Positions 1-13,128 of a stretch of 36,167 bases of DNA are shown one piece after another (the stretch's first letter is position 1; the number at the start of each line of letters is the position of its first letter). The stretch spans positions 1-36,167 of IMG/VR virus record IMGVR_UViG_3300042868_009976; one strand, given 5' to 3'. The notes below the pieces were generated by a model that did not search any database, had not been told where the DNA came from, and saw only the letters and a list, made by a program, of their open reading frames with translations. This DNA comes from a virus. The translations under genes were made by a program, and so were the position numbers.

Positions 1-56
1 GCTGTGCGGTTTCCTCGGCCCACCCCCCCCTAGGGAGGACCCAAGCGCTTGGCGCG
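1..56. other. Left part of putative cos region
   Basis: Non-coding stretch between the gpZ-like stop codon and the left end. Bases 1-13 are identical to 36155-36167. When the ends are joined, CCTCGG at 13-18 pairs with CCGAGG at 36150-36155 across an 11-base loop. Two further palindromes follow: CCCTAGGG at 28-35 and the perfect 12-mer CCAAGCGCTTGG at 41-52. Eight C residues run at 23-30. Dense symmetry beside the small-terminase gene fits a terminase binding and nicking site, by analogy with lambda cos. The symmetry is seen directly; the function is inferred. Confidence 0.55.
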
Positions 57-707
57 TCACAGCCTGCGCCCAGTGAACCCAGCGAGGGCGGCGTCGATGC
101 CCGCCGACGCCGTGCGCACGAACGACTCGTCGATGGTGCGCTGCGCGGTCACGTGAAAGCGCAGTCGCGCCTTGAGTCGGACGCTCGGGACGAGCTTGTA
201 GAGCAGGTCGGTACGGGCCCCAAAGCGCACACCCTTCACCCTGCCCGCTTTCTTCTCCTTCACGAGAAACGTGCCGTTCGGCGTGGTGATCTTGCGCACC
301 TTCGGATCGCTTCGCAGTGTCGAGATGCGCAGACCCTTGGCCACGACCGTGTCTGGTGTTGGCTTAACGGCCGGCAACGGGATCGCGACCGAGCGACCCG
401 ACATGGGCGCCTTAACGCTGTCCTCCTCAAACTTGGCCAGCATATCGCGTGCAGGGTTCACACCGAACGCCGCGCGCGGTCGAGCGTTGGTCGCGAAGTC
501 TTGAGGACTCTGCCGGAAGATGGTCTTCCGTACATAGTCGGGACGCCGAAGGGTGAACCCCGTGGTTAGGGAATCCTGCACGGCCCTCTGACCATCGTCG
601 GCCAGCTTGTTCAGGGTCAGGGTCAGCGCACGGGGGGCCAGCCGGCCGATCTCTTTGAGCGCCCGCTTGATCTCCTCGTGCCCAGTCACGTTGATCGAGA
701 TGTCCAC
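57..707 (-). CDS. gpZ-like minor tail / tail-completion protein
   Basis: The 216-residue product starts with a beta-strand and the motif EEIKRALKEIG, followed by a helical stretch with LNKLADDGQRAV. It continues with an R-rich middle and a C-terminal helix. This resembles lambda gpZ-type tail-completion proteins, which act where the tail joins the head. GTG at 707 is preferred because AGGGGG lies 7 bases upstream; GTG at 713 is the alternative. It is separated by about 34 bases from the RusA stop, unlike the overlapping early genes, and its C-terminus lacks the Ala-Ala ending of its upstream neighbours. On the circle it lies just before cos and the terminase genes, away from the other head-tail genes. 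Family assignment is by appearance only. Confidence 0.6.
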   Translation of the reverse strand: MDISINVTGHEEIKRALKEIGRLAPRALTLTLNKLADDGQRAVQDSLTTGFTLRRPDYVRKTIFRQSPQDFATNARPRAAFGVNPARDMLAKFEEDSVKAPMSGRSVAIPLPAVKPTPDTVVAKGLRISTLRSDPKVRKITTPNGTFLVKEKKAGRVKGVRFGARTDLLYKLVPSVRLKARLRFHVTAQRTIDESFVRTASAGIDAALAGFTGRRL

Positions 708-741
708 AGTCACGCCCCCTGCTGTCTTTGAGTGATCGTCA

Positions 742-1251
742 TCACGCCGCTGCCCTCTGGAAGTTATCCACATCGACCACCAGTCGGGCCGATGTCCCGT
801 CATCCACCCGCTCACAGCTCACGCGCGCCACACTGGCGTCGTCGCGGTAGGCCAGGCCACGGAGCAGGTCGAGCGTGCCCTTGATTCGGTTGTCCACATC
901 GCCGCTACGCTGTGATCGGTGCCACGTGATCGCCACGGACAGCTCGCCGTCGAGCGGCACGACGTGCCGGAAGATCAGGGCTGCGGCCTTGGTGTCGGCC
1001 GCGGCGCCGTCTGCCTTGTAGTTCCGGCCCTTGCCGGTGCGCCAGAGCCGATTGGCCGACGTGACCACCGGCATGGTGAACCGCCAGCCGCCGCGCGGGC
1101 TCATGGCCACCGTCGCCTCGGTCCACGTAAGCGGCGCGGCCCGTTTGGCCGTAGTGGCCTTTCTGCGCGATTTGGGCGCTGTGTCCTTGCCTTGCCCCGT
1201 CTTTCGCGGTTTCGGGGCAGGGCGGGGCGATTGTGGGCGTTTGGCGGCCAT
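742..1251 (-). CDS. rusA: RusA-family Holliday junction resolvase
   Basis: The 169-residue protein has a basic, Pro/Lys-rich N-terminal extension of about 45 residues and then a RusA domain. D118, D120, K124 and D138 have exactly the spacing of the E. coli RusA residues D70, D72, K76 and D90, inside the motif GDVDNRIKGTLDLL. RusA enzymes cut four-way junctions symmetrically, which here would resolve replication or recombination intermediates before packaging. ATG at 1251 overlaps the upstream stop as TGATG; a GTG one codon earlier (1254) is equally possible. It is the last gene of the replication block and ends in Ala-Ala-Ala. The long basic extension is unusual and may help DNA binding. Confidence 0.88.
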   Translation of the reverse strand: MAAKRPQSPRPAPKPRKTGQGKDTAPKSRRKATTAKRAAPLTWTEATVAMSPRGGWRFTMPVVTSANRLWRTGKGRNYKADGAAADTKAAALIFRHVVPLDGELSVAITWHRSQRSGDVDNRIKGTLDLLRGLAYRDDASVARVSCERVDDGTSARLVVDVDNFQRAAA

Positions 1252-2375
1252 CACGCGGCCACCTTGGTCGTGCCATGCACGATCATCATGGCGCCGTCGG
1301 TGCGTGCGACGGGGTCATCGTGATGGCGCCGCGCGTTCTCGGCGAGGGCGCCGATCTTCTTACCGAGGTCGGCCACGCTCAGGAACGGCGCCGAGCGTCC
1401 CTTAGTGACGAGCCCGCAGTAATCTCGCAGGCCCATCACGATGGCCCGGTGCGGCACGTGGTGCGCATCGTCGGGTGGTCGGAACATGGGCCCAAGCGTG
1501 GCGATGAGCTGGCCGACGTTGACCACGCCGAGCTTGGCCTTCCACACCGTGATGCATTCGGAACGGTCAGCCGACGCGAATGCAGGGTATTTCACGTCGT
1601 CGCTCACCTCCCCAGGGGCGCGGCGTGCGCGTTTTGCACGCTGCACATGGTCGTTGGTTCTGGTCGTTGGTACTGGTCGTAGGTCGTTGGTATGTAGCGT
1701 CGACGTGTCGACGACGTGTCGGCGATCATTCGTCGACGTGTCGACGACGACTCCACGAATGGCGTTATTGCGGGCTTGTGTTTCCTGACCATGCTTTCGC
1801 CTATTGCATTGCAGGCAAAGCAGTTGGAGGTTCTGGTCCTCATCTCCGCCGCCATCGGCCACCGCCTTGATGTGGTCGATCTCGGCGAGGTTTGGGGCGG
1901 CATCATACTTGTCGGCCTTGTACCGCTTGCACGTCACGCCACACGCGCAGCATAACCCGCCATCCCGCGCAAAGATGCGGTCCCGTGTCGATGCCAACAG
2001 CGCCTTCCGCTTCCGGCGATCAGTGGACAGCTCGGACGGTTCCGGCGCTGTAATCGGAGGGAGCGCCGCAGCCATGTTGGGCTTGTCGATCTTCTGGTGC
2101 CGCGACCAGTTCGCAATCTCAAGAACTCGTTGCCCGCTGTCTGTCAGACCAGACACCACGCGGCCGGCCTCGGATAGCAACTCCAAAGCGTCCGCGCACG
2201 TGTCCTCAGTCCACGGGAACACAAATGCGTCGATCATCTTCACATTGTGGACAACTCGCCCCGTGTCGTCGGCCATGCTGATGAGGCCCAGAAACACTAG
2301 GCGAGTAAGCGGGGACATCGGCCCCAGCTTCTCGTCCTGCCAGAACTCCGGCTTAATCGTCCGAATACGCGCCAC
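1251..2375 (-). CDS. Replication initiator with internal HNH domain
   Basis: A 374-residue multidomain protein. Residues 1 to about 115 look like the N-terminal winged-helix part of phage replisome-organiser proteins (RTIKPEFWQD, followed by TRLVFLGLISMADDTGR). Residues about 125-200 form an HNH module: Cys pair near CCAC, EIDHIKAVADGG, then LLCLQCNRRKHG. Residues about 209-243 are low-complexity, rich in Val-Asp-Thr-Ser-Thr and Thr-Asn-Asp, and coincide with DNA repeats. The C-terminal part is of unknown fold. Position next to the helicase-like gene supports a role in origin recognition and helicase loading. GTG start overlaps the upstream stop (TAGTG). It ends Lys-Val-Ala-Ala. The HNH insertion is odd: it may be a domain acquired from a homing-type nuclease or a nicking function. 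Confidence 0.7.
   Translation of the reverse strand: MARIRTIKPEFWQDEKLGPMSPLTRLVFLGLISMADDTGRVVHNVKMIDAFVFPWTEDTCADALELLSEAGRVVSGLTDSGQRVLEIANWSRHQKIDKPNMAAALPPITAPEPSELSTDRRKRKALLASTRDRIFARDGGLCCACGVTCKRYKADKYDAAPNLAEIDHIKAVADGGGDEDQNLQLLCLQCNRRKHGQETQARNNAIRGVVVDTSTNDRRHVVDTSTLHTNDLRPVPTTRTNDHVQRAKRARRAPGEVSDDVKYPAFASADRSECITVWKAKLGVVNVGQLIATLGPMFRPPDDAHHVPHRAIVMGLRDYCGLVTKGRSAPFLSVADLGKKIGALAENARRHHDDPVARTDGAMMIVHGTTKVAA
1648..1749. repeat. Iteron-like repeats, putative replication origin
   Basis: Two repeat families sit inside the initiator gene. On the plus strand TGGTCGTTGGT occurs at 1648-1658 and 1661-1671, a truncated copy (TGGTCGT) at 1674-1680 and a one-mismatch copy at 1681-1691, giving a 13-bp period. 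An identical 19-mer, beginning CGTCGACGTG, occurs at 1698-1716 and 1731-1749; each copy contains two GTCGAC palindromes. A less GC-rich stretch (about 1750-1800) follows. Lambda-type phages carry their origin as iterons inside the initiator gene O, so the same arrangement is inferred here. The repeats are seen; origin activity is inferred. Confidence 0.6.
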
Positions 2376-3517
2376 TAGGCCACCCTCCGGTTCGACGGCG
2401 AGCCCAGCGCAATCCCGTGGTCCGCCGCGAACACGTCGCGGCTGTCGTCGTTCGGCATATCCATGATGTGTCCCCGCACGTATTTGAGCTTGATCGACTT
2501 GTCGCGGGACGCCCCGCCGTACCTCAGCTTCATGCCGGACACCTCCATGACATCCGGCAGCACGATGCTGGACACGTCCCGGCGTCCGGCCCGCACCTCT
2601 TGGATCATCTCGCCGTCCGCGGCCGGGTCGAGCACGCGCGAGAGCCCGAAGATGTTGGCCGCCATCTGCTCCTTCTTGCCCTTGTTGTAGAGCCAGTCCA
2701 CGGACGGCCGGCGGTAGTGCGCCAGCGCGTCCCCCCCCGTGCGCGAGCTGTTGAGCTGCGTGAGCAGAATCATGGGGATGCTCAGGTGCTTGGCCGCGCG
2801 CAGGGCCATGGACTGCATGGCGTTCGACAGGGCGATCTCGGGGCCGGACTCGCCCACGTCGTTTTCGGCGTGGTCCATATGGTCGACGATCACCACGTCC
2901 GACTCCTGGAGCTGGGCGACGTGGAGCGCCCGCGCGAAGCTCTTGGGGGTCAAGGCGTCGATGGGCTCGATGCGCAGCGATTCGAGCAGCGTGCGGTCCT
3001 CGCGCATGAGACGGTACGCCACCGATAGCTCGTCGTGCTGGGCCTTGGCCACCGTGTCGCCCTGTTCGACGCGGTCCCGCAGCCGCTTCGACAGCGCGTC
3101 GTCGGCACTGATGCCGCAGTCAAGGCACGCCAGGCGCGTGAACGTCTCGCCGGGGTCGGCTTCGAGGGGCAGGTACGTCACCTTTTTGCCCTGCACGCGC
3201 AGGAAGTGCTGCAACAGATGGGCGGCGAACGACGTCTTGCCGTTGCCGGGGAACGCCGCGATGTAGGTCAGGCGCCCCGGCACGAGCGGTCCCGCGAACT
3301 CGTTCATGGCACGCCACGGCCACCGGATGAGGCTCGCCGTGTCCATCTCGTGCAGCCACTCGGCGTAATCGAGCGCGGCCTGCCCGATGATCCACGGGTC
3401 GCGGCCCACAAGCGCGTGGTGCGCGACGCAGTAGGCCGGGTCTCCATCGACCCACCCGCGCTGGGGCAGGTCGACGGGGTTGGAGCAGAACCGGCAGAGC
3501 AGGGTCGGCCGGCTCAT
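2375..3517 (-). CDS. DnaB-like replicative helicase ATPase
   Basis: The 380-residue product has a short zinc-binding-like N-terminus (CRFC at 8-11, then C30 and a His pair at 33-34). A RecA-like ATPase core follows: Walker A AFPGNGKTS at 88-96, Walker B VVIVDHMD at 208-215 and LLTQLN at 251-256. This matches phage DnaB-like helicases of the gp4/TWINKLE type, which lack the full N-terminal domain of bacterial DnaB. It probably unwinds phage DNA together with the adjacent initiator. ATG overlaps the upstream stop as ATGA. The stop overlaps the next GTG as TAGTG, with GGAGG in the last codons serving as ribosome-binding site. No primase gene is visible, so host DnaG is probably used. Confidence 0.8.
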   Translation of the reverse strand: MSRPTLLCRFCSNPVDLPQRGWVDGDPAYCVAHHALVGRDPWIIGQAALDYAEWLHEMDTASLIRWPWRAMNEFAGPLVPGRLTYIAAFPGNGKTSFAAHLLQHFLRVQGKKVTYLPLEADPGETFTRLACLDCGISADDALSKRLRDRVEQGDTVAKAQHDELSVAYRLMREDRTLLESLRIEPIDALTPKSFARALHVAQLQESDVVIVDHMDHAENDVGESGPEIALSNAMQSMALRAAKHLSIPMILLTQLNSSRTGGDALAHYRRPSVDWLYNKGKKEQMAANIFGLSRVLDPAADGEMIQEVRAGRRDVSSIVLPDVMEVSGMKLRYGGASRDKSIKLKYVRGHIMDMPNDDSRDVFAADHGIALGSPSNRRVA

Positions 3518-3762
3518 GCCGCCCCGTCGAACAGCATGGGCGCCGTGTCATCCTCACGCGGCGCCCGAGGCTCCGCCGCCATGTCGATGCGCGCCGCCGG
3601 ATCGAACGCGCGCCGCGCCACGCCGGCCAGATCTTGCAGGAGGCGCGCAATCACGGTCCGCTCGCCGATGGTCAGGTGGTGCCCGCGCATGGTCAGACGG
3701 GACGCGACCATCTCGGCCGCGGTGATGGCGGTGCGGAGCTCTCCGTTGGTGGTGATGCTCAC
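3514..3762 (-). CDS. Small helical protein of unknown function
   Basis: An 82-residue, mostly helical, acidic-tailed product with no family recognised. GTG at 3762 overlaps the upstream stop (GTGA), with AAGGTGG embedded in the upstream codons as ribosome-binding site. The end is Gly-Ala-Ala and overlaps the helicase ATG. Placement directly before the helicase makes a replication accessory role possible but unproven. Confidence 0.7.
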   Translation of the reverse strand: MSITTNGELRTAITAAEMVASRLTMRGHHLTIGERTVIARLLQDLAGVARRAFDPAARIDMAAEPRAPREDDTAPMLFDGAA

Positions 3763-4604
3763 GCGGCCACCTTCTGCCGGCCGCGCTGCTTGAGCACGTG
3801 GGCGAGCTTCGCCGTGGTCAGGATCAGCGCCTTGATCTCGTCCGGCGCCTGGTCGTAGCCCAGCCGATGCCACCGGCCACCGCTCAGGCGCGGGAGCAGG
3901 GCACGCGGGATGGCGACCCAGTTCGACGCGGCCGTGTTGCGTCGGTTACCGTCGAGGCTCTTGAGCGCGTGGCCCTCGGGCAGCGGGCCGTTGACCGCTT
4001 CCCAGTTGACGATGTGGGATTGCCGCCAGTTGACGGTCCACGAGACCATAGTCGCGTCGCCGACCTTGGTGAACTCGTAGCCCTTGATGATCCGAGTGCT
4101 GCCCAACGGGCGCCAGTTGCGGGGCGACTGCGCCTTCTTGAACTGCGTCGTGCTCATGCGACCGGGGGACCAGCCGGCCGGCCGTTTGATGCCCTTGTTC
4201 AAGGCAACCTGCCCCCGACGGAACTGCGTCGACGCGCCGATCATGGCCCCACGCTGAAGACGGCCCGACGCGGCGGTGGCCAGATATTTGGGGCATTTGT
4301 TCAGCCCAAGGGTATAGGCCCGCCGGGATACGGACGCGGGCGACCTCTGCAACTCGGCCGCGAGCTGCGCGGTCGGCATATGCGGGAATCGTTCACGCAG
4401 GATGGCATCGTCGTCGGCCGAGAACTGCTCCCGTCCCGTCGTCCAGCCGTGGCGCGTACAGAGTGCCTTAATGTGGGCCACGCTCACATCCGACCGACGA
4501 AACCGGGCCACAAACGCCTCGCGGATCTCGCGGCGGGGCAGATCGCGCCGAGCCGCGACGAACAGCAGCTCGGCTTGGCTGTATGCAATACGGCCGCCGT
4601 TCAT
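3759..4604 (-). CDS. HNH endonuclease with DNA-binding N-terminus
   Basis: A 281-residue protein. Residues about 10-110 carry two helix-turn-helix-like segments (one near SVAHIKALCTRHGW, one near PTAQLAAELQRSPASVSRRA). The middle holds TQFRRGQVALNKGIKRP and TTQFKKAQSP, repeats typical of the DNA-contacting arm of phage HNH proteins. The nuclease region contains HIVNWEAVNGPLPEGHAL and DGNRRNTAASNW, matching the HNH_3 pattern seen in free-standing phage HNH enzymes. It probably nicks or cuts DNA; homing versus a packaging or replication role cannot be settled. It overlaps both neighbours as ATGA/GTGA and ends Lys-Val-Ala-Ala. Confidence 0.75.
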   Translation of the reverse strand: MNGGRIAYSQAELLFVAARRDLPRREIREAFVARFRRSDVSVAHIKALCTRHGWTTGREQFSADDDAILRERFPHMPTAQLAAELQRSPASVSRRAYTLGLNKCPKYLATAASGRLQRGAMIGASTQFRRGQVALNKGIKRPAGWSPGRMSTTQFKKAQSPRNWRPLGSTRIIKGYEFTKVGDATMVSWTVNWRQSHIVNWEAVNGPLPEGHALKSLDGNRRNTAASNWVAIPRALLPRLSGGRWHRLGYDQAPDEIKALILTTAKLAHVLKQRGRQKVAA

Positions 4605-4846
4605 GCCGCCGCCGGCAGCGCCATGGTCGACGGCAGGGCCTTCTGCATCCCGCCGCCGTGCAGCGCGATCAGCTTGGCCCCTTCCAGCTGGAGGCTCGCC
4701 GTGTCCACGATCCGGTCCGCCACCTGCACGACGGACGTGGTGCGCTGGATCTCCTGCGCCAGCGCGTCGCTGGTGAGCGTCTCGTCGGTCAGCCGCTCGA
4801 GCTGAGCAAACAACATATCGTTGAGGTCGGACAGTCGGTTTTTCAT
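4601..4846 (-). CDS. Small helical protein of unknown function
   Basis: An 81-residue product, predicted largely alpha-helical, with a leucine-rich first half (LSDLNDMLFAQLERLTDE) and a conserved-looking middle (TTSVVQVADRIVDTASLQLEG). No family recognised. ATG at 4846 overlaps the upstream stop; AAGGGCG in the upstream codons is the likely ribosome-binding site. It ends Ala-Ala-Ala. Confidence 0.7.
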   Translation of the reverse strand: MKNRLSDLNDMLFAQLERLTDETLTSDALAQEIQRTTSVVQVADRIVDTASLQLEGAKLIALHGGGMQKALPSTMALPAAA

Positions 4847-5280
4847 GCGGCGCCCTTCATGGGGTGGGAGAAGTCGGGATCGAGCAGCGGGTGCGTCGGC
4901 GCCGCCGCGGGAGGGGTGAGCCCAAGGGCTCGGGCGCGGATCGGGTGCACCCACGTCGGCGGGGTCCATCCGTCCTTGGTCACGTTCTTGTCGCTCCACT
5001 GCGCGGACCGCGGCGTGGCGGGGGCGTCGTACGGCTGCACGCAGAACCCGCGCGTGCCGTCGTTCAGCCGGTCCTTGCGCAGCAGCTTGCGGCGGGCGGC
5101 GGCACTCAGCACGCGGTACATCGTGCGAAGGGGGACCATCGGGAACGCGGCGCAGATCTCGGGCACGGTTTGTCCGGCGTGTGTACGGACGTGCGCGACG
5201 ACCGGCCCGATCAGCTTGGCCACCGTGTGCTCGACGGGGTCGTGGCGGGTCGCGTAGTTCCGGTCTGGTGTCAGTGCCAC
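4843..5280 (-). CDS. Putative winged-helix DNA-binding protein
   Basis: A 145-residue product. Residues about 20-75 form a probable winged helix (VRTHAGQTVPEICAAFPM, then LRTMYRVLSAAARRKLLRK). The C-terminal half is Pro-rich and probably disordered. GTG at 5280 lies inside the end of the upstream gene, a 10-base overlap. It ends Lys-Gly-Ala-Ala. It may be a replication or early regulatory protein; no specific function can be assigned. Confidence 0.65.
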   Translation of the reverse strand: MALTPDRNYATRHDPVEHTVAKLIGPVVAHVRTHAGQTVPEICAAFPMVPLRTMYRVLSAAARRKLLRKDRLNDGTRGFCVQPYDAPATPRSAQWSDKNVTKDGWTPPTWVHPIRARALGLTPPAAAPTHPLLDPDFSHPMKGAA

Positions 5281-5396
5281 CGCTGCACCTCGCGGGTGAG
5301 CCGGTGGACGAGCTCCTCGATGACCATGACGACGGTGAACAGACCGACTACGGCGAGCGCGCCGATGGCGACCGCCCAGCGGGGGGAGACGGTCAC
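5271..5396 (-). CDS. 41-residue single-pass membrane protein
   Basis: A very short ORF: GTG at 5396 (overlapping the upstream stop as GTGA) to TGA at 5271. Residues about 8-25 (VAIGALAVVGLFTVVMVI) are a convincing transmembrane helix. A charged amphipathic tail with EELVHRLTREVQ follows. GGAGG lies 4 bases before the GTG within the upstream codons. Coupling at both ends and a coherent membrane profile argue for real translation. The function is unknown; small early membrane proteins of phages often act on the host envelope or exclude superinfection. Confidence 0.65.
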   Translation of the reverse strand: MTVSPRWAVAIGALAVVGLFTVVMVIEELVHRLTREVQRWH

Positions 5397-5566
5397 GCGG
5401 CCTCCTGTCGGTCGATCCGCTCGTGCATGGTCCGCATCGCCTTGAGCATCCCGCGGCGGTAGGCGCCAAGCGACACATACGTGGCCGCAAGGGCGTCGTT
5501 GGCGATGAGCGCGTAGACCAGGCGGGCGTAGTGCTCGAGGTCGCGCAGGCGTTTGGTGTCGGTCAC
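5393..5566 (-). CDS. 57-residue helical protein
   Basis: The ORF runs from GTG 5566 (GTGA overlap with the upstream stop) to TGA 5393. The product is entirely helical in appearance (TKRLRDLEHYARLVYALI, then YRRGMLKAMRTMHERID) and ends Glu-Ala-Ala. The last bases, GGAGGCCGCGTGACCG, supply ribosome-binding site, stop and next start in one motif; the same 16 bases recur at the 9746/9749 junction. Function unknown. Confidence 0.65.
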   Translation of the reverse strand: MTDTKRLRDLEHYARLVYALIANDALAATYVSLGAYRRGMLKAMRTMHERIDRQEAA

Positions 5567-5832
5567 GCGGCCCCCGGGAACAGCACGTCGGTGGCGGTGC
5601 GCGGCTTGAGCAGCTTCGCCTGAGTCAGGTCAGCGCGGAGCTGGTCGCGCTCCTGCTCTCTGTCCCACAGCTCAGACGACAGCGCTTCGCGCATCCGCAC
5701 CTCGTCGTCGCGCTGCCGCTTGACGATGGCAAGCTCACGCTCCAATCGGACGACGGTGACCTGAAGCCGCGTGATCTCGTCGATCTGGCGCACGAGATCG
5801 CGCGCCATGAGCTCCTCCATGGACTCGCTCAT
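5563..5832 (-). CDS. Coiled-coil protein of unknown function
   Basis: An 89-residue product. Residues about 12-72 are a long charged coiled coil (LQVTVVRLERELAIVKRQRD, then SELWDREQERDQLRADL). ATG at 5832 overlaps the upstream stop (ATGA). It ends Gly-Ala-Ala with a GTGA overlap to the next gene. No family is recognised; oligomerisation through the coil is likely. Confidence 0.7.
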   Translation of the reverse strand: MSESMEELMARDLVRQIDEITRLQVTVVRLERELAIVKRQRDDEVRMREALSSELWDREQERDQLRADLTQAKLLKPRTATDVLFPGAA

Positions 5833-6311
5833 GCGGCGGCCCTCGCGGCGGCACGCTTCGCAGACTGTCTGCGTCCCTCTTGCAGACGGCAGGTGCGGCA
5901 CATACGGTGTCCAGCCTTGTTCCGCTGCACGTTTTCATTAGAAAACGGATGCCCCTGAGCGCAGTGCGTTTTGCTCGCGTTGCGGGCCGTCAGGATGTTG
6001 ACGCTACGGCCACGCTCCTTGGCATCCCGTGCGTTGTCGAGCACCGTGCCGATATAGAGATGCTCTGGATTGCAGCAGTGCCGCACGTCGCAGTGATGGC
6101 AGACCAGCATCCCCTTCGGAATCTCGCCATAAACGATGCCGGCGACCAAGCGATGAACCGACTTGCTGACCGTCTTGTTGCCTATGCGAATCCCGAGCTG
6201 GCCGTAGCCTTGCCCGTTCCGTGTCTTCTTCCACTCCCAGCAGCCGGCCGCGGAGAACGCCACGTTGTCGCGAATGCGGTCAAGCAGGGCGGTGCCTTCG
6301 GTCGCCTTCAC
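5829..6311 (-). CDS. HNH endonuclease beside attP
   Basis: The 160-residue protein has an HNH_3-type core: CWEWKKTRNGQGYGQ, SVHRLVAGIVYGEIPKG, then CHHCDVRHCCNPEHLYIG and NARDAKERGR. A zinc-knuckle-like segment (HCAQGHPF, MCRTC) and an Ala/Arg-rich tail follow. The open frame extends upstream to 6509, but those codons are the antisense of a tRNA fragment and of a duplicated integrase end. GTG at 6311 is chosen because AGGGGAAG lies just upstream and the junction matches the other early starts. It ends Ala-Ala-Ala. It probably nicks or cuts DNA; a free-standing homing nuclease is a likely origin. Confidence 0.8.
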   Translation of the reverse strand: MKATEGTALLDRIRDNVAFSAAGCWEWKKTRNGQGYGQLGIRIGNKTVSKSVHRLVAGIVYGEIPKGMLVCHHCDVRHCCNPEHLYIGTVLDNARDAKERGRSVNILTARNASKTHCAQGHPFSNENVQRNKAGHRMCRTCRLQEGRRQSAKRAAARAAA

Positions 6312-6323
6312 GCGGCTTCCCCT

Positions 6324-6351
6324 GCTCGCCACTTGCTCGCCAGTTGTGTGC
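6324..6351. repeat. Direct repeat R1 (copy of integrase 3' end)
   Basis: A 28-bp direct repeat that matches 6543-6570 with 3 mismatches; weaker similarity, including CGCCTTCACG, extends the copies to 6303-6351 and 6528-6570. R2 is the true 3' coding end of the integrase (HTTGEQTAS, then VKA). R1, read in the same relative frame, encodes HTTGEQVAS and VKA upstream of the HNH start. The copies are 219 bp apart and bracket the tRNA fragment, suggesting a duplication that accompanied insertion of the attP segment. Confidence 0.8.
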
Positions 6352-6440
6352 GCGTTTTGTCGAAAAGGCGCGTTTCTGGGGGTCTGATACGCCCTATGTT
6401 CACTCTCAGATACAGAGGGAAACCGCGATTCCGGCGCGAC

Positions 6441-6480
6441 TTGAAGTGGCGCGGTCATCGGTTCAATCCCGATCTGTGGC
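6441..6480 (+). other. attP: Putative attP core: 3' part of a tRNA
   Basis: Bases 6457-6473 form a perfect tRNA T-arm: stem ATCGG/CCGAT with 7-base loop TTCAATC. GGTC before it (6453-6456) suits a variable loop. CTGTGGC at 6474-6480 suits the 3' strand of an acceptor stem. Upstream, 6436-6452 can form an anticodon arm with loop TTGAAGT (anticodon GAA, Phe-like), but one stem pair is mismatched. No D-arm or matching 5' acceptor strand (GCCACAG) is present, so this is only a tRNA 3' fragment. Tyrosine integrases commonly recombine in tRNA 3' ends, the fragment restoring the host gene; here it lies 30 bases from the integrase stop. tRNA identity is uncertain. Confidence 0.75.
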
Positions 6481-6509
6481 TCTTCTGTAAGTTGTTTATT
6501 CATCGGCAC

Positions 6510-7721
6510 TTAGACTTTCTCCTTGCGCGCCTTCACGGGCGCGCTCGCCGTTTGCTCACCAGTTGTGTGCAATGTGGGGAGCCGAAGCTCGGCCACCATC
6601 GTGGCGGCGTCCTCGGCACGGTCGCGCAGATACGAGCGCTGAAGCACTCGCACGTCGGTGTCGCCCAGCCACAGCCCGACTTTGGTGATGTCGCCCGTCA
6701 GGGCCAGCACGTTGCCGGCTACCATGCGGCGGATCGAGTGCATCGCCTTGTACTGAATGCGGGGAAGCCCTGCCTTCCGAGCGGCCTCGTGCAACCCCGC
6801 GTTCAGCGACGAGTACGTGAACGGCTTCCCCGCCGTCCGCTTCTGCCGGCTGGAGAACACGTACGGGGACTGCCGCCCCTCCCGCGCCGCCCAGACCCGG
6901 CACACCCTCAGCACGAACACCGCGTCACGCGGGAGCTGCTGGACGCGCGTGCGCCCCACCTTATCGAGCTCGCCACGCCAGGTCACGGTGCGCCCGACGA
7001 CATCATCCCATCGCAGGTTGAGCAGCGCGGTCGAGCGCGGCGCTAGCAGCCCATCCAATGCAATCAAAGCCCAGATGCGCCACGTGTTGAGGGTCCGGTA
7101 GGACAGCTGCGCCATCAGCCGGCTGAACTCGACCGGCGTGAATTCCGGCACCGACATCGGCTGATAGTCGCGCCCCTTCTTGACCGCATACTCGGCCAGC
7201 ACGTTTTCGCGGAGCAGACGCCGCTGCCGCGCAAAGCGCCACACCGACTTCACAAGCTGGATGTGGTGGGCCACCTGGTTGCGTGCCATCGGGACGCCGC
7301 GCCGGGTGTCGGTCTCCAGCAGCTCCTTGCGCCACGAGTCCAGCGTCTCCATCTGCACAAGATCCGCATACGTGTGAGGCGCCACGTGCGTCATGAACAC
7401 CTGCCAACGCGCGCGGGCGATGGCGAGCGTCTTGGGGCGCCAGTCAGGGGCGTGGGCGGTGATGTAGGCGTCCCACAGGTTCTTCACGGTCTGTCGCGTG
7501 GGCGCTGGGGCTTCTCCGGCGCGCAGCCGTTCCGCCACGCCCTCGCCGTACGCCTTTGCCGCCGCTTCTCGATCTCGCCGCGTGCCCTTGAACTGCTTCG
7601 ATTTCTTGACGCCGGCTTCCCGCCACTCCACGACGGCCACGGGTTCTCCACGAGACTCTGCGGTCACAACGTTGACCGTCGCCCCGTAGCTGCCGTAGCT
7701 CTTGAGCTTGACGCGCGTCAT
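6510..7721 (-). CDS. int: Tyrosine-recombinase integrase
   Basis: A 403-residue integrase with an N-terminal arm-type domain (about 1-70), a core-binding SAM-like domain (about 75-185) and a catalytic domain. Catalytic residues: R229 in APRSTALLNLRW, K254 in LDKVGRTR, H328 and R331 in HSIRR, and nucleophile Y364 in LQRSYLRD. The position usually held by His (or Trp) in the LGH motif is D354 (WLGDTD), an unusual substitution. It would catalyse attP x attB recombination at the tRNA fragment 30 bases downstream. ATG overlaps the stop of the excisionase candidate. Unlike its neighbours it does not end in Ala-Ala and is not coupled to the next gene. Confidence 0.93.
   Translation of the reverse strand: MTRVKLKSYGSYGATVNVVTAESRGEPVAVVEWREAGVKKSKQFKGTRRDREAAAKAYGEGVAERLRAGEAPAPTRQTVKNLWDAYITAHAPDWRPKTLAIARARWQVFMTHVAPHTYADLVQMETLDSWRKELLETDTRRGVPMARNQVAHHIQLVKSVWRFARQRRLLRENVLAEYAVKKGRDYQPMSVPEFTPVEFSRLMAQLSYRTLNTWRIWALIALDGLLAPRSTALLNLRWDDVVGRTVTWRGELDKVGRTRVQQLPRDAVFVLRVCRVWAAREGRQSPYVFSSRQKRTAGKPFTYSSLNAGLHEAARKAGLPRIQYKAMHSIRRMVAGNVLALTGDITKVGLWLGDTDVRVLQRSYLRDRAEDAATMVAELRLPTLHTTGEQTASAPVKARKEKV
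6543..6570. repeat. Direct repeat R2 (within integrase 3' end)
   Basis: The partner of R1 at 6324-6351, with 25 of 28 positions identical. It lies inside the integrase coding sequence just before the stop codon. The segment between the copies holds the integrase stop and the tRNA 3' fragment. The higher mismatch on the R1 side and reading-frame conservation in both copies suggest an old duplication. Confidence 0.8.
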
Positions 7722-8065
7722 GCCGCACCGATCCGCGCGGCTTCCCGCAGCATCTCAGGATGCCCGCGCCGCGGCACGATGCACGCCCGCAGCCGGTATT
7801 GCCGCTTCTCATAGATGACGTGCGACGTGTGCAGATACTTGCGGGCGTGCCGGCGCACTTGATCGCCGGTCCATCCAGCCCGGCGGGACGCCTCCTGCTC
7901 AGAGATCCATTGCGTGAACTCTTCGGCCACGTCGGCCGCTTCTTCGGCGCACTGCTCGAGGATGCGGGCCGTGCGTTCGTCGCCACGACGACGCAGGACG
8001 GCGGCCTCTCCGCGCCAGTCCGCGATGACGCCGGTCAGCTCAGGGCGAGGGGCGATGATGCTCAT
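7718..8065 (-). CDS. Putative excisionase / directionality factor
   Basis: A 115-residue product with a helical N-terminus and a probable helix-turn-helix at about 52-75 (ISEQEASRRAGWTGDQVRRH), followed by a basic wing-like segment (KRQYRLRACIVPRRG). It lies directly upstream of and overlaps the integrase (ATGA), the usual place of recombination directionality factors. Many excisionases are small winged helices of about this size. GGGTGG precedes the ATG. It ends Gly-Ala-Ala. The DNA-binding appearance is seen; the excisionase role is inferred from position and could be wrong. Confidence 0.55.
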   Translation of the reverse strand: MSIIAPRPELTGVIADWRGEAAVLRRRGDERTARILEQCAEEAADVAEEFTQWISEQEASRRAGWTGDQVRRHARKYLHTSHVIYEKRQYRLRACIVPRRGHPEMLREAARIGAA

Positions 8066-8118
8066 GTCGCCACCCAGCCAAGATAGGCGCGCTCTTCTCC
8101 TGTTTTAAATCGCGTCAT
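8062..8118 (-). CDS. 18-codon coupling mini-ORF
   Basis: ATG at 8118 overlaps the stop of the upstream gene (ATGA) and TGA at 8062 overlaps the ATG of the next gene (ATGA). The peptide is MTRFKTGEERAYLGWVAT. GGAGG lies 7 bases before its ATG, a better ribosome-binding site than most in the operon. It therefore fills the gap between two genes as a perfectly fitted open frame. It may be a coupling ORF that carries ribosomes onward, a microprotein, or the remnant of a shortened gene. Confidence 0.5.
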   Translation of the reverse strand: MTRFKTGEERAYLGWVAT

Positions 8119-8330
8119 ATCGTTTCCTCCCGCGCCTGCCGCACCGCGCGGTTGAACAGTTTCATGATGAGGGCGCCCATTTCGGTGGCGTAGGTGGCGG
8201 CGTCCTTGAGGTCGTCGGGGCGCCGTGGCTGCGTGACGCGCAGGGCGCCCTCGCGCACGGCGCTCCGACGGAGCCCTTGCACGGCGTTGTACACGTCCTG
8301 GCGGAGATCGTGCAGCGTGCGCCCGGTCAC
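8115..8330 (-). CDS. Small helical protein of unknown function
   Basis: A 71-residue product, mostly helical, with LHDLRQDVYNAVQGLRR and MGALIMKLFNRAVRQARE. The sequence suggests a small regulatory or recombination accessory protein, but no family is recognised. GTG at 8330 overlaps the upstream stop (GTGA). One of the few early products that does not end in Ala-Ala (ends Glu-Thr-Ile). Confidence 0.65.
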   Translation of the reverse strand: MTGRTLHDLRQDVYNAVQGLRRSAVREGALRVTQPRRPDDLKDAATYATEMGALIMKLFNRAVRQAREETI

Positions 8331-8623
8331 GCGGCGCGCTCCGGCCAGCGGCGCAGCAACGGGGCGCAGCTGAGGCACAGCAGGACCACGTCGTCGGCGA
8401 GGTCGATCATCTCCCGCACCCGCGAGACGGACCCGCAGAGGTCGCATCGTTCCTCGTCGGTGGTGGCGGTGTCCATGCGGGCGAAGAACCGCTCGTGCTG
8501 CCGTGTGGCCTGCGCCTGCCGCTCGAGCTCGAGCGCGATGCGGGCCTGCTCGAGGCGGTACTGGCGGACGGCGAGAACGAGCAGCGTGAGAAGCATCACG
8601 CTCAGGATGGCGATCTCTTTCAT
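8327..8623 (-). CDS. Membrane-anchored zinc-ribbon protein
   Basis: A 98-residue product. Residues about 4-19 (IAILSVMLLTLLVLAV) form an N-terminal transmembrane helix. A charged coiled coil (about 20-48) follows, then a zinc-ribbon-like pair CDLC at 60-63 and CLSC at 83-86. Zinc ribbons on a membrane anchor are uncommon among early phage genes. The protein might tether a nucleic acid or protein partner to the inner membrane; no family is recognised. ATG at 8623 overlaps the RecT-like stop; GAGG in the upstream codons is the ribosome-binding site. It ends Arg-Ala-Ala. Confidence 0.7.
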   Translation of the reverse strand: MKEIAILSVMLLTLLVLAVRQYRLEQARIALELERQAQATRQHERFFARMDTATTDEERCDLCGSVSRVREMIDLADDVVLLCLSCAPLLRRWPERAA

Positions 8624-9444
8624 GCGGCCTCGTCCACCGCATACGGGTCCGGCGCGGCCAGCGCGCGGCGGGCGTTGGCGACGGCCTGCTCGGTCGTCGG
8701 CATCGCGTCGCCGTGGCCGTAGGCATCGGTGGTGACGGACCGACTCGGCAGGGCCTTCGGCGCCTGTGCTTCGGCGTACTCGGCGTCGGCAATGACGACC
8801 TTGGCGGTGTCGTCGGCGCTCCGCTCCATGGTCGCAAACTGCGCCCCGAAGGTGGGCAGCACTTCGGCGACCTGCTTCCACGCGCGTCGGCCGGCGCGGG
8901 TCGTGGCGGTCTTGGTGGGCTCGGCATCGCCGACGGGGTCGCGCTGCCGCACGCCACCGCCGCACCAGTTCACGCCGACGACGGTCTGGCCGGTCGCAGC
9001 CACGGTAATCCGGAACACGACGGCCGCCGCCGCCTTCTCGGGCACGCCGTGCATGATGCGGGCGCGGATGCGGCGGGTGCTCTCCTCAATCGCCCAGGCG
9101 TCGCCGTTGGCGGCGAGCTGGTCGAGGCGCGGGTCAGCCTGCACGAACTCGGGCTCGTGCGGGATCAGGGCGCCGGACTGGATCAGGGGCGCCGCGCGTT
9201 CTTCGTACAGCGTGGCCGTCAGGTACGGTTTGCCGCCGAGGACCTCGATGTGGCGCAGCGGGTCGAGGTTGTTGGAGCGGCAGTACTCGGCCAGCGCATA
9301 CACGCCCTCGGCGCTCAGGTCCTTGGACCACTGCGTGCCCCGGATGGCGGCGGCCATGCGGTTCTTCATCTTGTTCTCGGCGATACGCGCCTCCACGTCT
9401 GCGCTCATCGGCGTGCGTTTCACGATGCCCGTTTCTTCACTCAT
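8620..9444 (-). CDS. RecT/Bet-like single-strand annealing protein
   Basis: A 274-residue product with YCRSNNLDPLRHIEVLGGKP near residues 53-73 and KTATTRAGRRAWKQV near 178-192. The first resembles the conserved region of RecT/Bet-type annealing proteins; the second resembles the 'KT..TRA.RRA' helix found in several annealing families. Such proteins pair complementary single strands during phage recombination. The C-terminal 60 residues are Ala-rich and probably flexible. It sits in the early operon where recombination genes usually lie. No exonuclease partner (RecE, YqaJ, Exo) is visible. Assignment is by motif resemblance; another Rad52-like or phage protein family is possible. Confidence 0.5.
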   Translation of the reverse strand: MSEETGIVKRTPMSADVEARIAENKMKNRMAAAIRGTQWSKDLSAEGVYALAEYCRSNNLDPLRHIEVLGGKPYLTATLYEERAAPLIQSGALIPHEPEFVQADPRLDQLAANGDAWAIEESTRRIRARIMHGVPEKAAAAVVFRITVAATGQTVVGVNWCGGGVRQRDPVGDAEPTKTATTRAGRRAWKQVAEVLPTFGAQFATMERSADDTAKVVIADAEYAEAQAPKALPSRSVTTDAYGHGDAMPTTEQAVANARRALAAPDPYAVDEAA

Positions 9445-9749
9445 GCGGCGGCCCGGATGCGGTCGAGATAGGTGGACAGGAACGCGACCTGTGCGGCCAC
9501 GGCCTGCTCAAAAGTCTGCACGTCGTCGTTGTCGCTGATCGCCCGCCAGCACGTGCGTTCGGCGTCGGTCGCGTCTTCCAGCAGCACCTCAATGGCCACG
9601 CGGCGCACGGCCTGCTCGCGGTCGTCCGCGTTACGGCGCCACTGGAACCGCAGGTAGCACATCGCGGTCACCAGATCGCCAAAGCCGCGGATCATGGCGT
9701 GGTGGGCGAGGTCGCGCGCATCCCACGCCAGCTCGATCTCGGCGGTCAC
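9441..9749 (-). CDS. Small early protein, unknown function
   Basis: A 102-residue helical product containing ISDNDDVQTFEQAVAAQ near the C-terminus. Its downstream part shares the pattern DDVxTFExxVxA, and a 22-base DNA stretch with 19 matches, with the gene directly upstream (9746-10000), suggesting a partial duplication. GTG overlaps the upstream stop with GGAGG embedded in the upstream codons. It ends Ala-Ala-Ala. Confidence 0.65.
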   Translation of the reverse strand: MTAEIELAWDARDLAHHAMIRGFGDLVTAMCYLRFQWRRNADDREQAVRRVAIEVLLEDATDAERTCWRAISDNDDVQTFEQAVAAQVAFLSTYLDRIRAAA

Positions 9750-10000
9750 GCGGCCTCCCGCCGTGCGCGGTCGTGCTCGTGGCGCAGGCGCACCGCGGTC
9801 ACAAAGTGCTCGAAGGTCTCCACGTCGTCCGCGATGGCGGCGTGCGGCGCGGTCATCACCATGGTCAGGTGCAGCACGGTGCCGTCTCGGGTGGTGATGG
9901 TGGGGGCAGGATCGCCGCCCAGGACGATGGGGTAGGTGCGGCGACGGCGTCCGTCGGCACTGACATACAGCACCGTGCGCCGGAGATGTGGCTGGTCCAT
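9746..10000 (-). CDS. Small early protein, unknown function
   Basis: An 84-residue product: beta-rich first half (RRTVLYVSADGRRRRTYPIV, then TVLHLTMVMT) and a helical end with DDVETFEHFVTA. ATG at 10000 has GAGG 5 bases upstream, so the longer frame reaching 10075 is not used. It is separated from the ribbon-helix-helix gene by a 92-base leader with a strong hairpin. No family recognised. Ends Glu-Ala-Ala with a GTGA overlap to the next gene. Confidence 0.65.
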   Translation of the reverse strand: MDQPHLRRTVLYVSADGRRRRTYPIVLGGDPAPTITTRDGTVLHLTMVMTAPHAAIADDVETFEHFVTAVRLRHEHDRARREAA

Positions 10001-10026
10001 GGTGGCCTCACTCGGTAGTTTGTGCG

Positions 10027-10049
10027 GGACGGCGCCGGGTGCGCCGTCC
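10027..10049 (-). promoter_or_regulatory. Strong hairpin in early operon leader
   Basis: A perfect 9-bp inverted repeat (GGACGGCGC ... GCGCCGTCC) with a 5-base loop, in the only real gap of the early operon, between the ribbon-helix-helix gene and the 84-residue gene. No T-run follows in the leftward direction (the flank is CGCACAAACT), so a classical intrinsic terminator is unlikely. It could be an attenuator, a boxB/nut-like antitermination site or an mRNA-stability element. No N-like protein was recognised. Confidence 0.5.
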
Positions 10050-10092
10050 TCGCTCTCAGCGGTCAGCCGTCTCACCGGCTGGCCGTTGGCGT

Positions 10093-10290
10093 TTACGCGG
10101 CTTTTGCGCGTGATGCGGCCGCGATTTTCCGGATCGCCGCCTTGACGGCCGCTTCACGGATGAAGCCGGACACCGTGTCGCCCTGCTGGAACGCGGCCTC
10201 GACGACGAGGTCCCGCTCGGGCAGGCTGAACGAAACGGACAGCGGCGACGTTCGCATCTTCATCTGGCGCGGTGACCTTTCAGCAGTCAT
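10093..10290 (-). CDS. Ribbon-helix-helix (CopG/Arc-like) regulator
   Basis: A 65-residue basic protein. A beta-strand SPLSVSFSLP precedes helix RDLVVEAAFQQ, a turn and helix SGFIREAAVKAAIRKIAAAS, the standard layout of ribbon-helix-helix repressors. As the first gene of the leftward operon, opposite the rightward repressor, it fits a Cro-like or early autoregulator that binds the shared control region. ATG at 10290 is weakly preceded by ACGAG. It ends Lys-Ala-Ala with TAA, although no gene overlaps its stop. Confidence 0.7.
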   Translation of the reverse strand: MTAERSPRQMKMRTSPLSVSFSLPERDLVVEAAFQQGDTVSGFIREAAVKAAIRKIAAASRAKAA

Positions 10291-10331
10291 CGTGTACTCG
10301 TTGAGTTAGTGGGGACTCGCTTCGTGTCAGG

Positions 10332-10360
10332 ATAATGCAGGACAGCATGTAATGACGCAA
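10332..10360 (-). promoter_or_regulatory. Early leftward promoter (predicted)
   Basis: On the minus strand, TTGCGT (10360-10355) and CATTAT (10337-10332) are spaced by exactly 17 bases, a good sigma70-like pair. Transcription would start near 10325 and run into the ribbon-helix-helix gene and the early operon. The -35 box overlaps the predicted rightward -35 box, so binding of one regulator could affect both directions. A prediction from pattern only. Confidence 0.55.
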
Positions 10361-10380
10361 GGGCCAATATGCGGTTTTAT
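10352..10380 (+). promoter_or_regulatory. Repressor promoter (predicted)
   Basis: On the plus strand ATGACG (10352-10357) and TTTTAT (10375-10380) are 17 bases apart, each matching the sigma70 consensus at 4 of 6 positions. That start would be close to the repressor ATG at 10396, which has AAGGGG 5 bases upstream, so the leader would be very short. It is weaker than the leftward promoter. Confidence 0.35.
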
Positions 10381-10395
10381 CCTTAAGGGGTTCTC

Positions 10396-10875
10396 ATGGA
10401 CGTGCAAGACGCACTAGAAAGAGTCTGGCAGGAAGCCAAACGCAGCTCGCAGGGTAGAGTCGCTGACCGCATCGGTGTGCAACGGTCCGCGTTGAGCCGA
10501 TGGAAGCAGGGCGAGTCACCGCAGGGAGAGCTTCGCGAGAAACTCATCGCGTGGGCCGAGTCTCTGCCGCCGCGCGCGGCCGTCGCCCCCGAGGAGGCCG
10601 CCATCGAGCTCGCCAATGAGCGGACTGGCCAGAACTTGGTCCGGCTGGCCGAGATCCGGGGCTATGCGAAGTCAGTGCTGGCGATGCTACGGGCCGTGGC
10701 CGACGAACAGCAGCGGGTCGTGGACTCGCTCGAACCCTACGCGGCGGCCGAGGGGCGGCTGCTTGCCACGCGCCTTACGGCGGAAGATCGCCGTGAGATC
10801 TTGGAGGCCGTCACGGCGACCGAGGCTGCCATCACGCAGCCAGAAACTGCGCGTCGGCCGGCGTCTGAGGCATGA
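10396..10875 (+). CDS. HTH repressor without peptidase domain
   Basis: A 159-residue product. Residues about 17-43 hold an HTH (SQGRVADRIGVQRSALSRWK) of the XRE type. The rest (about 65-150) is helical with a Glu/Ala-rich coil, probably for dimerisation. There is no LexA-like self-cleavage domain, so induction through RecA-driven autocleavage is not expected; an antirepressor or another signal would be needed. It is transcribed opposite the early operon, the normal place for a lysogeny repressor. AAGGGG precedes the ATG. Its 3' end overlaps the convergent gene 10832-11083 by 44 bases. Confidence 0.75.
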   Translation: MDVQDALERVWQEAKRSSQGRVADRIGVQRSALSRWKQGESPQGELREKLIAWAESLPPRAAVAPEEAAIELANERTGQNLVRLAEIRGYAKSVLAMLRAVADEQQRVVDSLEPYAAAEGRLLATRLTAEDRREILEAVTATEAAITQPETARRPASEA

Positions 10876-11083
10876 GCAACCCGTCGCACAGGGGGATTAG
10901 CAGGGCGCCGTAATTGGGCGGGCCAACATGGACCACGGTCCACGTCCCGCGCACGCGGCGCACGACGGCGATGGGCACGGGCGCCCCCGGACGCACGACG
11001 ACCACGTCACCGACCCGAGCGGGGACGGGATGAATGAACGCCCCGACCACCTCGAACACATAGGCTGCCTTCTCGAATGGCAC
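10832..11083 (-). CDS. Small beta-rich protein antisense to repressor end
   Basis: An 83-residue product with an SH3-like appearance: VGDVVVVRPGAPVPIAVVRR followed by TWTVVHVGPPNYGALL. GTG at 11083 has GAGG 8 bases upstream. The last 44 bases lie opposite the repressor 3' end. It ends Leu-Ala-Ala, like an ssrA tag. Its transcript would run antisense through the repressor and into the early operon. A candidate promoter (TTGCGC, 16 bases, TACGAT on the minus strand at 11170-11143) is weak. No function recognised. Confidence 0.55.
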   Translation of the reverse strand: MPFEKAAYVFEVVGAFIHPVPARVGDVVVVRPGAPVPIAVVRRVRGTWTVVHVGPPNYGALLIPLCDGLLMPQTPADAQFLAA

Positions 11084-11260
11084 AGAATGTCCTCAATCAT
11101 CCAATCGCCACACGCGCGAAAGATGTCCGCGCGATGCGTTCAATCGTACGGGCTAAGCGGTAAAGCGCAACCCGATTGCGATTTCTCAGAACTGTCTCAA
11201 TGCAGTGCCGTATGACCTGTCAAAATCACGTGAAGCCCTTTGCGGGCAAGGAGCTGTGAA

Positions 11261-11710
11261 ATGAAAAAGCGAACGTTTGTGGCGGTGTTGGTGGTGGTGG
11301 GCGCCATCGCGAGTGTCGTCATGGAGAACGCCAAGGCGGACAGTTTGGCCGGTCTGACCCCAGCACAGCGTGACAGTGCCCGTCTCCACGACGCGACGAT
11401 GAAGACGCTCAGGCGCCGCTCGTCAGATGTGGCGTTTCAGGGCAAGATGGCCATCAAGTCACGGTTGAGAGATCCCGAGTCGGCGCAGTTCGGCCGCGTC
11501 TGGGCCGGTGGTGATTCCCAATTCGTCGCCTGCGGCAAGGTGAACGCCAAGAATGGCTTCGGTGGCTACACGGGGGAGGAGTTCTACTGGGGCGTCCCGC
11601 CGCTGGTCATTACCTCAAGCGACGTGGAGAAGCTGAGTGCCAAGGAACGCAAAGCGATGGTCGCCACCGCCACCGCCTGTGATACCACCTACACATTCTC
11701 AACGCACTAG
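11261..11710 (+). CDS. Secreted periplasmic-type protein (moron)
   Basis: The 149-residue product begins with a textbook signal peptide: MKKR, a hydrophobic stretch (VAVLVVVGAIASVVM) and a probable cleavage after AKA. The mature part carries RDPESAQFGRVW, then CGKVNAKNGFGGYTGEEFYW and a late Cys; this pattern is seen in small periplasmic proteins of phages and proteobacteria whose function is unknown. AAGGAG lies 7 bases before ATG 11261, the best ribosome-binding site in the window. It has its own orientation beside the repressor, is likely expressed from the prophage, and could be a lysogenic-conversion or superinfection-exclusion factor (inference). Confidence 0.75.
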   Translation: MKKRTFVAVLVVVGAIASVVMENAKADSLAGLTPAQRDSARLHDATMKTLRRRSSDVAFQGKMAIKSRLRDPESAQFGRVWAGGDSQFVACGKVNAKNGFGGYTGEEFYWGVPPLVITSSDVEKLSAKERKAMVATATACDTTYTFSTH

Positions 11711-11745
11711 GAACGCGACACAGCGGCCGTCGAGCATACCGCCCT

Positions 11746-13128
11746 TCACTCGCGAGGGGCGGGGATCACGCCGGTGTGGATGTCGGTCTCGCCCAGCGTC
11801 CGGCTGAACGCGAACCCCTCGGCGGCCTTGATGTTGCCCACATAGCCCAGCTGGTGGTGCCAGGCGTCGGTGCCGGACAGGGACCGACAGCGCCGGATCA
11901 CGACGCCCATCTCTTCGTGGACATCGGACTGCATTGGCTGAATCACGGCGCGTTGGGTCTTGCTCTTGAGCGTGTGCAGATGCCCGGTGAGCCACACGCG
12001 GCAGGTCGTGTCCGCCCAGTCGGCACGCGCTTCGTGGGCCATGAGCATGGGCAGCTTGTCGTCCTTCTCCTTGTCCCCGTGCGTCAGACCGATCAAGCAG
12101 CAGCCCCACCGCTGGTAGTGGCGCAAGCGGTCGGGATTCACGACGGTCACGTCCTCCGTAGGGCCGTACATGGCGGCCAGCACTTCGCCGGCGTGCCACG
12201 TGATGGTCTGGTCGTGGTTCCCCACCTTGATCCAGACGGCGACCGGCGCGAGCTGGCGCCACCCTTCGATGATCTCGCGGCACAGCTCGACGCCGCGGCG
12301 GAACACTTTGCGATAGCGCCCGTCGACTTCCTGCGGCGTGCCGGCCGTGGTCGTGTTGGTCGGCGTGTCGGCGGTGAAGAAGTCGTCGCCGATTACAATG
12401 GCGACCTGCTCGGGGGCCAGCACGGCGGCGCGCTGCATCAAGTGTCGGTGGCTCTGGCGCACTCGGTCCAGCGCGATTTCGAGGTCGTAGTTCTCACCCG
12501 TCTCGGGGGCCCACGCCATCTTGCCCAGGTGCGGCTCGCCCATGGTGGCCACGTACAGGTAGCCGGACGCGCCAGCCGCACGAAGGACGGGGCGCAGCGG
12601 GCGGACGTGCGCCTTGATGGCGGCAATCATGCCGTCGGAGACGGCCGACGGGTTCCACGCGCGGCGCTTGAGCCGTGCGGTGACCTGATACAGCGTGGTG
12701 GACACGAGCTGGCCCGCGGGGTTCTTCGCGGCGGCCTCCCAGGTGTTCGCTTTCCACTCGCTGATCTCCCAGACGGTGGTGTCGATCTCACAGACGGCAA
12801 TGAGCTCGTCGAGGGTGCGGATCGGCTCGTGCGTGGTGATCGTGAGCCCGGCGGCGTTACCGGATTCGGACCACTCGCGCCGTCCCGACGACGGTCCGTC
12901 GGCGCGGATCGGTGGGGGCAGCACAGCGCCGCGGATGAGCGGGATGCGCTGCCGCGTGATGTACGCCTCGACCGACGAGAAGGTGCGCCCGACCGCGGCG
13001 GCACAGGCGACGAGGCTGGCCCCCTCGGCCCGTAGCTTGCGGATGATCGCGTCTTCGTGCGGGGTAAAGAACGCGCGCGGGTTGACGGCCTTGCCCCGCA
13101 CGCCGCTGCCCCGTGGGCGGGTGCTCAC
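11746..13128 (-). CDS. Metallophosphoesterase with N-terminal HTH
   Basis: A 460-residue protein. Residues about 20-62 (FFTPHEDAIIRKLRAEG, then GRTFSSVEAYITRQ) are a Myb/SANT-like helix-turn-helix. The calcineurin-type metal motifs follow: GEPH at 197-200 (canonical D-x-H here has Glu), GD at 248-249, GNHD at 303-306, H350 and GHLH at 382-385. Such enzymes hydrolyse phosphodiesters with two metal ions; the HTH suggests a DNA substrate. It ends the leftward late operon. GTG at 13128 overlaps the stop of the zinc-ribbon gene (GTGA). Whether it acts in nucleotide metabolism, recombination or host takeover is open. Confidence 0.82.
   Translation of the reverse strand: MSTRPRGSGVRGKAVNPRAFFTPHEDAIIRKLRAEGASLVACAAAVGRTFSSVEAYITRQRIPLIRGAVLPPPIRADGPSSGRREWSESGNAAGLTITTHEPIRTLDELIAVCEIDTTVWEISEWKANTWEAAAKNPAGQLVSTTLYQVTARLKRRAWNPSAVSDGMIAAIKAHVRPLRPVLRAAGASGYLYVATMGEPHLGKMAWAPETGENYDLEIALDRVRQSHRHLMQRAAVLAPEQVAIVIGDDFFTADTPTNTTTAGTPQEVDGRYRKVFRRGVELCREIIEGWRQLAPVAVWIKVGNHDQTITWHAGEVLAAMYGPTEDVTVVNPDRLRHYQRWGCCLIGLTHGDKEKDDKLPMLMAHEARADWADTTCRVWLTGHLHTLKSKTQRAVIQPMQSDVHEEMGVVIRRCRSLSGTDAWHHQLGYVGNIKAAEGFAFSRTLGETDIHTGVIPAPRE

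Follow-up and report, generated by a model that had tools for sequence, protein, structure and literature searches.

An attP core matching the 3′ end of tRNA-Thr(CGU) lies within an ORF apparently coupled to the integrase gene in a Gemmatimonadaceae phage, and integration may disconnect its replication genes from the early promoter

Phages with tyrosine integrases, including P22, L5 and many others, use the 3′ end of a tRNA gene as attB. In lambda, the left operon runs from PL through xis, int and attP to sib, an element beyond attP that regulates int by retroregulation, while the replication genes belong to another operon. The use of tRNA 3′ ends as attB by tyrosine-integrase phages has been described (PMC10865867), and in mycobacteriophage BPs attP is located within the repressor gene, which is associated with integration-dependent immunity (PMC4557955). 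For Tn916, distinct transcripts covering the transfer genes are formed only when the att ends are joined, according to Celli and Trieu-Cuot 1998 as cited in PMC6540685.

The stretch of DNA analysed here, referred to as the window, is a 36,167-bp phage record from IMG/VR with a GC content of 68% (Table 1). Its two ends, positions 1-13 and 36155-36167, carry the identical 13 bases GCTGTGCGGTTTC, which suggests that the genome is circular or complete, though the terminal match is short. The contig ends link the phrog_1924 gene to TerS and TerL, and this link is backed by the order phrog_1924-TerS-TerL in a prophage of genome G086. Almost all genes in the window are oriented leftward, the main exception being a repressor-like HTH gene, from which the leftward order is early genes, a wHTH-like gene, int, an ORF with an HNH domain, an HNH gene, the helicase, the initiator-HNH gene, RusA and phrog_1924. 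The first-pass annotation had described a continuous leftward operon, and indeed int terminates at 6510 and a GTG at 6509 opens the next ORF, with no gap. The integrase and the helicase each gave one remote match only against INPHARED, and neither the wHTH-like gene nor the gene at the position of RecT matched a Pfam or phrog family.

Table 1. Features of the attP locus and the early operon in the window.
Feature	Position	Strand	Evidence or remark
Neck/minor tail gene	57..815	-	phrog_1924; connects the replication block with TerS through the contig ends
RusA Holliday-junction resolvase	742..1254	-	PF05866, phrog_34
Replication initiation protein fused to HNH domain	1251..2375	-	phrog_1408, PF01844
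DnaB-like helicase	2375..3517	-	PF03796, phrog_19
HNH_3 endonuclease	3759..4604	-	PF13392, phrog_1891
attP-core-spanning ORF (MNKQLTEEPQIGIEPMTA...) fused to HNH endonuclease domain	5829..6509	-	Pfam HNH_3; SD AAGGAG 9 nt before GTG 6509
P arm-type site GGCGAGCAAGTGGCGAGC (predicted)	6324..6341	-	+126 from core centre
attP common core	6451..6483	+	variable loop, T-arm, acceptor 3′ strand, discriminator T, CT; exact match to host tRNA genes
Tyrosine integrase, 403 aa	6510..7721	-	Pfam PF00589, phrog_1
Hairpin GCGCGCCT/GGGCGCGC	6525..6544	+	on the tRNA-sense strand; may replace the terminator of the host tRNA array at attL
P′ arm-type site GGTGAGCAAACGGCGAGC (predicted)	6543..6560	-	within integrase 3′ coding end; -93 from core centre
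Small wHTH-like gene, candidate excisionase (RDF)	7718..8065	-	overlaps int; homologues directly upstream of int in L008, G090
Early gene at relatives' RecT position	8620..9444	-	RecT (phrog_148) upstream of int in L009, L010, G086
AT-rich region separating repressor from leftward early genes; presumed early promoter	10251..10450	-	GC down to 0.46 in 68% GC genome
Repressor-like HTH gene, intact, 4 kb from attP	10396..10875	+	phrog_638 / phrog_8

A perfect T-arm with the acceptor 3′ strand had been claimed to form attP, and both the element and its reading as attP were borne out. The 29-mer GGTCATCGGTTCAATCCCGATCTGTGGCT, located at 6453-6481 (+), comprises the T-arm plus the acceptor 3′ strand, and together with a flanking GC and CT it makes up a 33-bp core that is identical to the 3′ end of a host tRNA-Thr(CGU) and separated by 26 nt from the integrase stop codon (6510-6512). 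An exact 29-mer would arise by chance in 36 kb with a probability of about 1e-13. The sequence was recovered in exact form from six other IMG/VR contigs, each time directly downstream of an integrase; L002 and L005 have the same sequence at attP, so the contigs represent five distinct phages besides the window, or six when the window is included. It was also identified in 22 GTDB stretches, nearly all of which are from Gemmatimonadota and nearly all of which are complete tRNA-Thr(CGU) genes. This is the host tRNA that the first-pass annotation had proposed to search for, and in Gemmatimonadaceae it is the last gene of a His-Trp-Glu-Glu-Asp-Leu-Thr tRNA array.

ARAGORN called a tRNA-Ser at 6409-6482 in the window, which could be taken to mean that the element is a degenerate or active phage tRNA gene. 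We give this explanation practically no credence: tRNA likeness is confined to the 3′ 33 bp, the sequence 5′ of them varies from relative to relative and the 3′ part is identical to the host tRNA-Thr(CGU), so that sequence comparison already refutes it and the ARAGORN call is an artefact. The identity to the host tRNA, the adjacent integrase with its catalytic residues, the predicted arm-type sites and the attL and attR junctions in relatives (G001, G002 and G086) all support a real attP. On these sequence grounds, the window is shown to carry, at 6451-6483, the functional attP of a temperate phage of Gemmatimonadaceae, predicted to insert at the 3′ end of tRNA-Thr(CGU) and to restore the tRNA. 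The window contains no complete tRNA gene and its core restores the host tRNA, which sets it apart from tRNA-dependent lysogeny, where a short core leaves the host tRNA unrestored and the phage provides one.

The integrase residues R229, K254, H328, R331 and Y364 are invariant in four relatives. Repeats of the GGCAAYGAAACGGCAACG type in L008, L009 and L010 occupy a P′ position matching that of the window, at -93 to -95 from the core centre, and repeats of the GGCAACGAAATGGCAACG type are located at -94/-95 and +126 in the same three phages and at +126 in L007. The arm spacing is fixed among these phages, with P and P′ motifs that co-vary, those of the window having changed together. On the tRNA strand, comparable GC hairpins were identified 35-65 nt beyond the end of the tRNA sequence in each of the six phages (the window, L002, L007, L008, L009 and L010), and host tRNA genes have a GC hairpin followed by a T run at a similar distance. 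In the window, the hairpin overlaps the 3′ end of the integrase gene beside the P′ arm, and it seems that the phage hairpin resupplies the terminator of the tRNA at attL. In L002 (4799-6057), the integrase is divergent (29% identity), yet the HNH block downstream of attP is 67% identical to window positions 3759-4999, which suggests that int was exchanged beside a retained attP.

Antisense to the tRNA, the core is open in one frame only, which reads EPQIGIEPMTA. In all six distinct phages, an SD and a start codon following or overlapping the int stop were found in this through-core frame, as compared to none of 12 cases in the other frames, and the resulting ORF extends 58-207 codons past the core. 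Dinucleotide shuffles yielded an SD and a start in this frame at a frequency of 0.05-0.10 per phage; the product of these frequencies is about 8e-8 before allowing for relatedness, the six phages not being fully independent. The ORF is also present at attL of G001, G002, G090 and G086, and the reading frame of the integrase gene itself extends across the core in G017 and G101. The ORF of the window is fused to an HNH domain, and translation of the HNH part could begin at an internal GTG further on.

The through-core ORF might instead be a by-product, with selection acting only on tRNA identity and the arms, the start signals serving coupling or being remnants, and GC-rich DNA being open by chance; we regard this as unlikely, although it is compatible with other readings of the locus. 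Open frames are frequent in GC-rich DNA, some phages have additional ones downstream of the core, the ORF between core and arm is unconserved except for the core and arm motifs, and a 16.4-kb island in G025 has no such ORF. Against this stand the six-to-none distribution of start signals between the frames, the shuffling result and the integrase frames that themselves span the core in G017 and G101. Translational coupling of int to the attP-spanning ORF is strongly indicated by the positions of these signals, and attP most likely falls within translated sequence that links int to the genes on its far side; in the window this sequence is the HNH ORF. What is new is this placement of the attP core within an ORF that appears to be translationally coupled to int.

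We also compared the window to integrated relatives. A search of GTDB genomes with short peptide patterns of the integrase returned no relative, and a more sensitive search among Gemmatimonadaceae recovered a related integrase in 12 genomes, in seven of which it adjoins tRNA-Thr(CGU) and points at the tRNA. The possibility that prophages of this type integrate elsewhere, raised by the first-pass annotation, thus does not hold for most relatives. No prophage of the exact window phage was found in the search of GTDB genomes. In G001, a remnant prophage, the tRNA is followed by integrase-side sequence, and a second core 2.7 kb further on comes after an L007-like P arm and continues into the sequence located downstream of the tRNA in L013; the remnant in G002 is similar, and both have attL and attR with a duplicated core.

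The gene order predicted for the integrated state was seen in an independent 44.8-kb prophage at the same tRNA in G086, which reads attR, methyltransferase, unknown genes, phrog_1924, TerS, TerL, late genes, repressor, RecT, ParB, int and attL. Neither an initiator nor a helicase was recognised in the attR-side block, so the prophage confirms that the operon is split but not which genes are severed. The G086 prophage cuts the host tRNA-Thr(CGU) short after GGTTCAATCC (attR at 212491-212519), and a complete tRNA-Thr(CGU) of different sequence is located between the junction and int (L055:18539-18610; G086:C5 ~257520-257600), making it, together with its short core, a candidate for tRNA-dependent lysogeny (PMC10865867) outside the actinobacteriophages.

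Other elements were recovered at or near such sites. Three copies of the tRNA-Thr 3′ end in G129:C19, at 72826, 103994 and 112851, bound stretches of 31 and 9 kb and probably represent tandem elements at an integration hot spot; no homologues of window proteins were called when G129, G112 and G121 were checked for further prophages. The G025 island (L059:1385-17837) is located at tRNA-Thr(CGU) and encodes an integrase of the same family as that of the window, but most of its other genes are oppositely oriented and none matched the other window proteins. A phage-like region in G047, found by a helicase search in Gemmatimonadaceae, encodes a related helicase and initiator and was set aside, with no integrase of the window type and no tRNA seen nearby.

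Initiators (phrog_1408, phrog_9474) were identified beyond attP and on the same strand as int in the window, L002 and L010, wherever sequence sufficed, and L008 has helicase and initiator homologues in this position and orientation. In L009 and L010, the recombination gene RecT (phrog_148) is upstream of int. Strongly AT-rich, promoter-like regions near the early genes of the window are attP itself, where the P arm (6331-6450) has a GC content of about 0.53, 11031-11300, and the presumed early promoter region, with divergent gene starts at 10290 (-) and 10396 (+). A single AT-rich stretch was found in 17 kb of L010, next to the repressor and upstream of RecT-int-attP-initiator. Taken together, the AT-rich dips point to one early promoter region. 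A strong promoter of the replication genes downstream of attP had been named as what would overturn the proposed silencing, and it found no support, the test being weak: a scan of 1-11800 for the sigma-70 consensus returned no promoter anywhere, not even at the expected early promoter.

The attP may nevertheless be an ordinary one, with the replication genes expressed from their own promoter downstream of it, control by the repressor alone and a split without regulatory effect; this is possible, if rather improbable in our judgement. The AT-rich P arm of the window could hold a promoter, as could the coding sequence, there are gaps of 100-400 bp downstream of attP in L002, L008 and L010, and tRNA-targeting attP sites adjoining int are commonplace. 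However, no AT-rich dip separates attP from the initiator in L010, those found at attP in L002, L008 and L009 fall on the core and spacer and not on the P arm, the window has no gap between int and the attP ORF, and the gene order is kept across phages with very different integrases.

The reading that we consider somewhat probable is that attP splits a coupled early operon, such that the replication genes are expressed only from circular DNA, a gate added to repression. When the phage DNA is circular, ribosomes, and probably RNA polymerase as well, would continue from int across attP to the HNH, helicase, initiator and RusA genes, presumably along a single transcript from the 10251-10450 region that would be lost on integration; the coupling of the ORF across attP lends such a transcript indirect support. 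Because the promoter region and the replication genes are on opposite sides of attP, integration disconnects the latter from the early promoter: the promoter, the candidate excisionase and int would stay at the tRNA end, while the replication and late genes would move to the far end, lacking an upstream promoter and beside the displaced host tRNA terminator. Integrated relatives show this geometry. The early promoter had been proposed to lie about 36 kb from the replication genes in the prophage; the separation stands, with the distance corrected to about 32 kb and the promoter pointing away. We infer that the replication genes are silenced by rearrangement and would be expressed during infection or after excision, under a topological gate in addition to repression.

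A further and rather doubtful step is to view the attP ORF and the split operon as a dedicated integration sensor, by which excision must precede replication in this phage group. The circular form would then give rise to the long attP-ORF product and the replication proteins, and the integrated form to a short peptide with antisense-tRNA codons at its end, the replication proteins being absent. The attL peptide would be about 31 aa long and end in the antisense tRNA.

Like phages of the P22 and L5 type, the window has a core corresponding to a tRNA 3′ end, an adjacent int, arm-type sites and a tRNA predicted to be restored at attL, but unlike in those phages its replication genes are located past attP in the operon of int, with the core inside a coupled ORF. 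As in lambda, a left operon runs through int and attP and integration would remove the sequence beyond attP from the transcript, whereas the replication genes of the window are part of that sequence. The suggested likeness to integration-dependent immunity held in part: as in BPs, attP is inside an ORF, the two parts of which are separated by integration, but here the ORF encodes an HNH protein or is short, and the cut falls close to its N-terminus. The repressor-like gene is separate and intact, and attP being outside it, this is not integration-dependent immunity of the BPs type. Like in Tn916, the presumed promoter region and the target genes are on opposite sides of att and on the same strand (the window, L008 and L010), with the differences that this is a phage, that replication genes take the place of transfer genes and that a transcript across att is presumed. 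Tn916 is the closest working parallel, and by analogy replication would be gated by circularization. A literature search of incomplete coverage returned no described phage with this layout.

The data name an integration site for phages of Gemmatimonadaceae, a family for which no described temperate phage turned up in a literature search. Whether a prophage excises before or after replication starts decides if neighbouring host DNA can be packaged (lateral transduction). P22 reportedly replicates in situ (PMC8575938). If the replication genes are joined to the promoter only after excision, the phages described here would, unlike P22, be locked into excising first, and this lock would be readable from gene order alone. 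Control by circularization in the style of Tn916 would then extend to phages.
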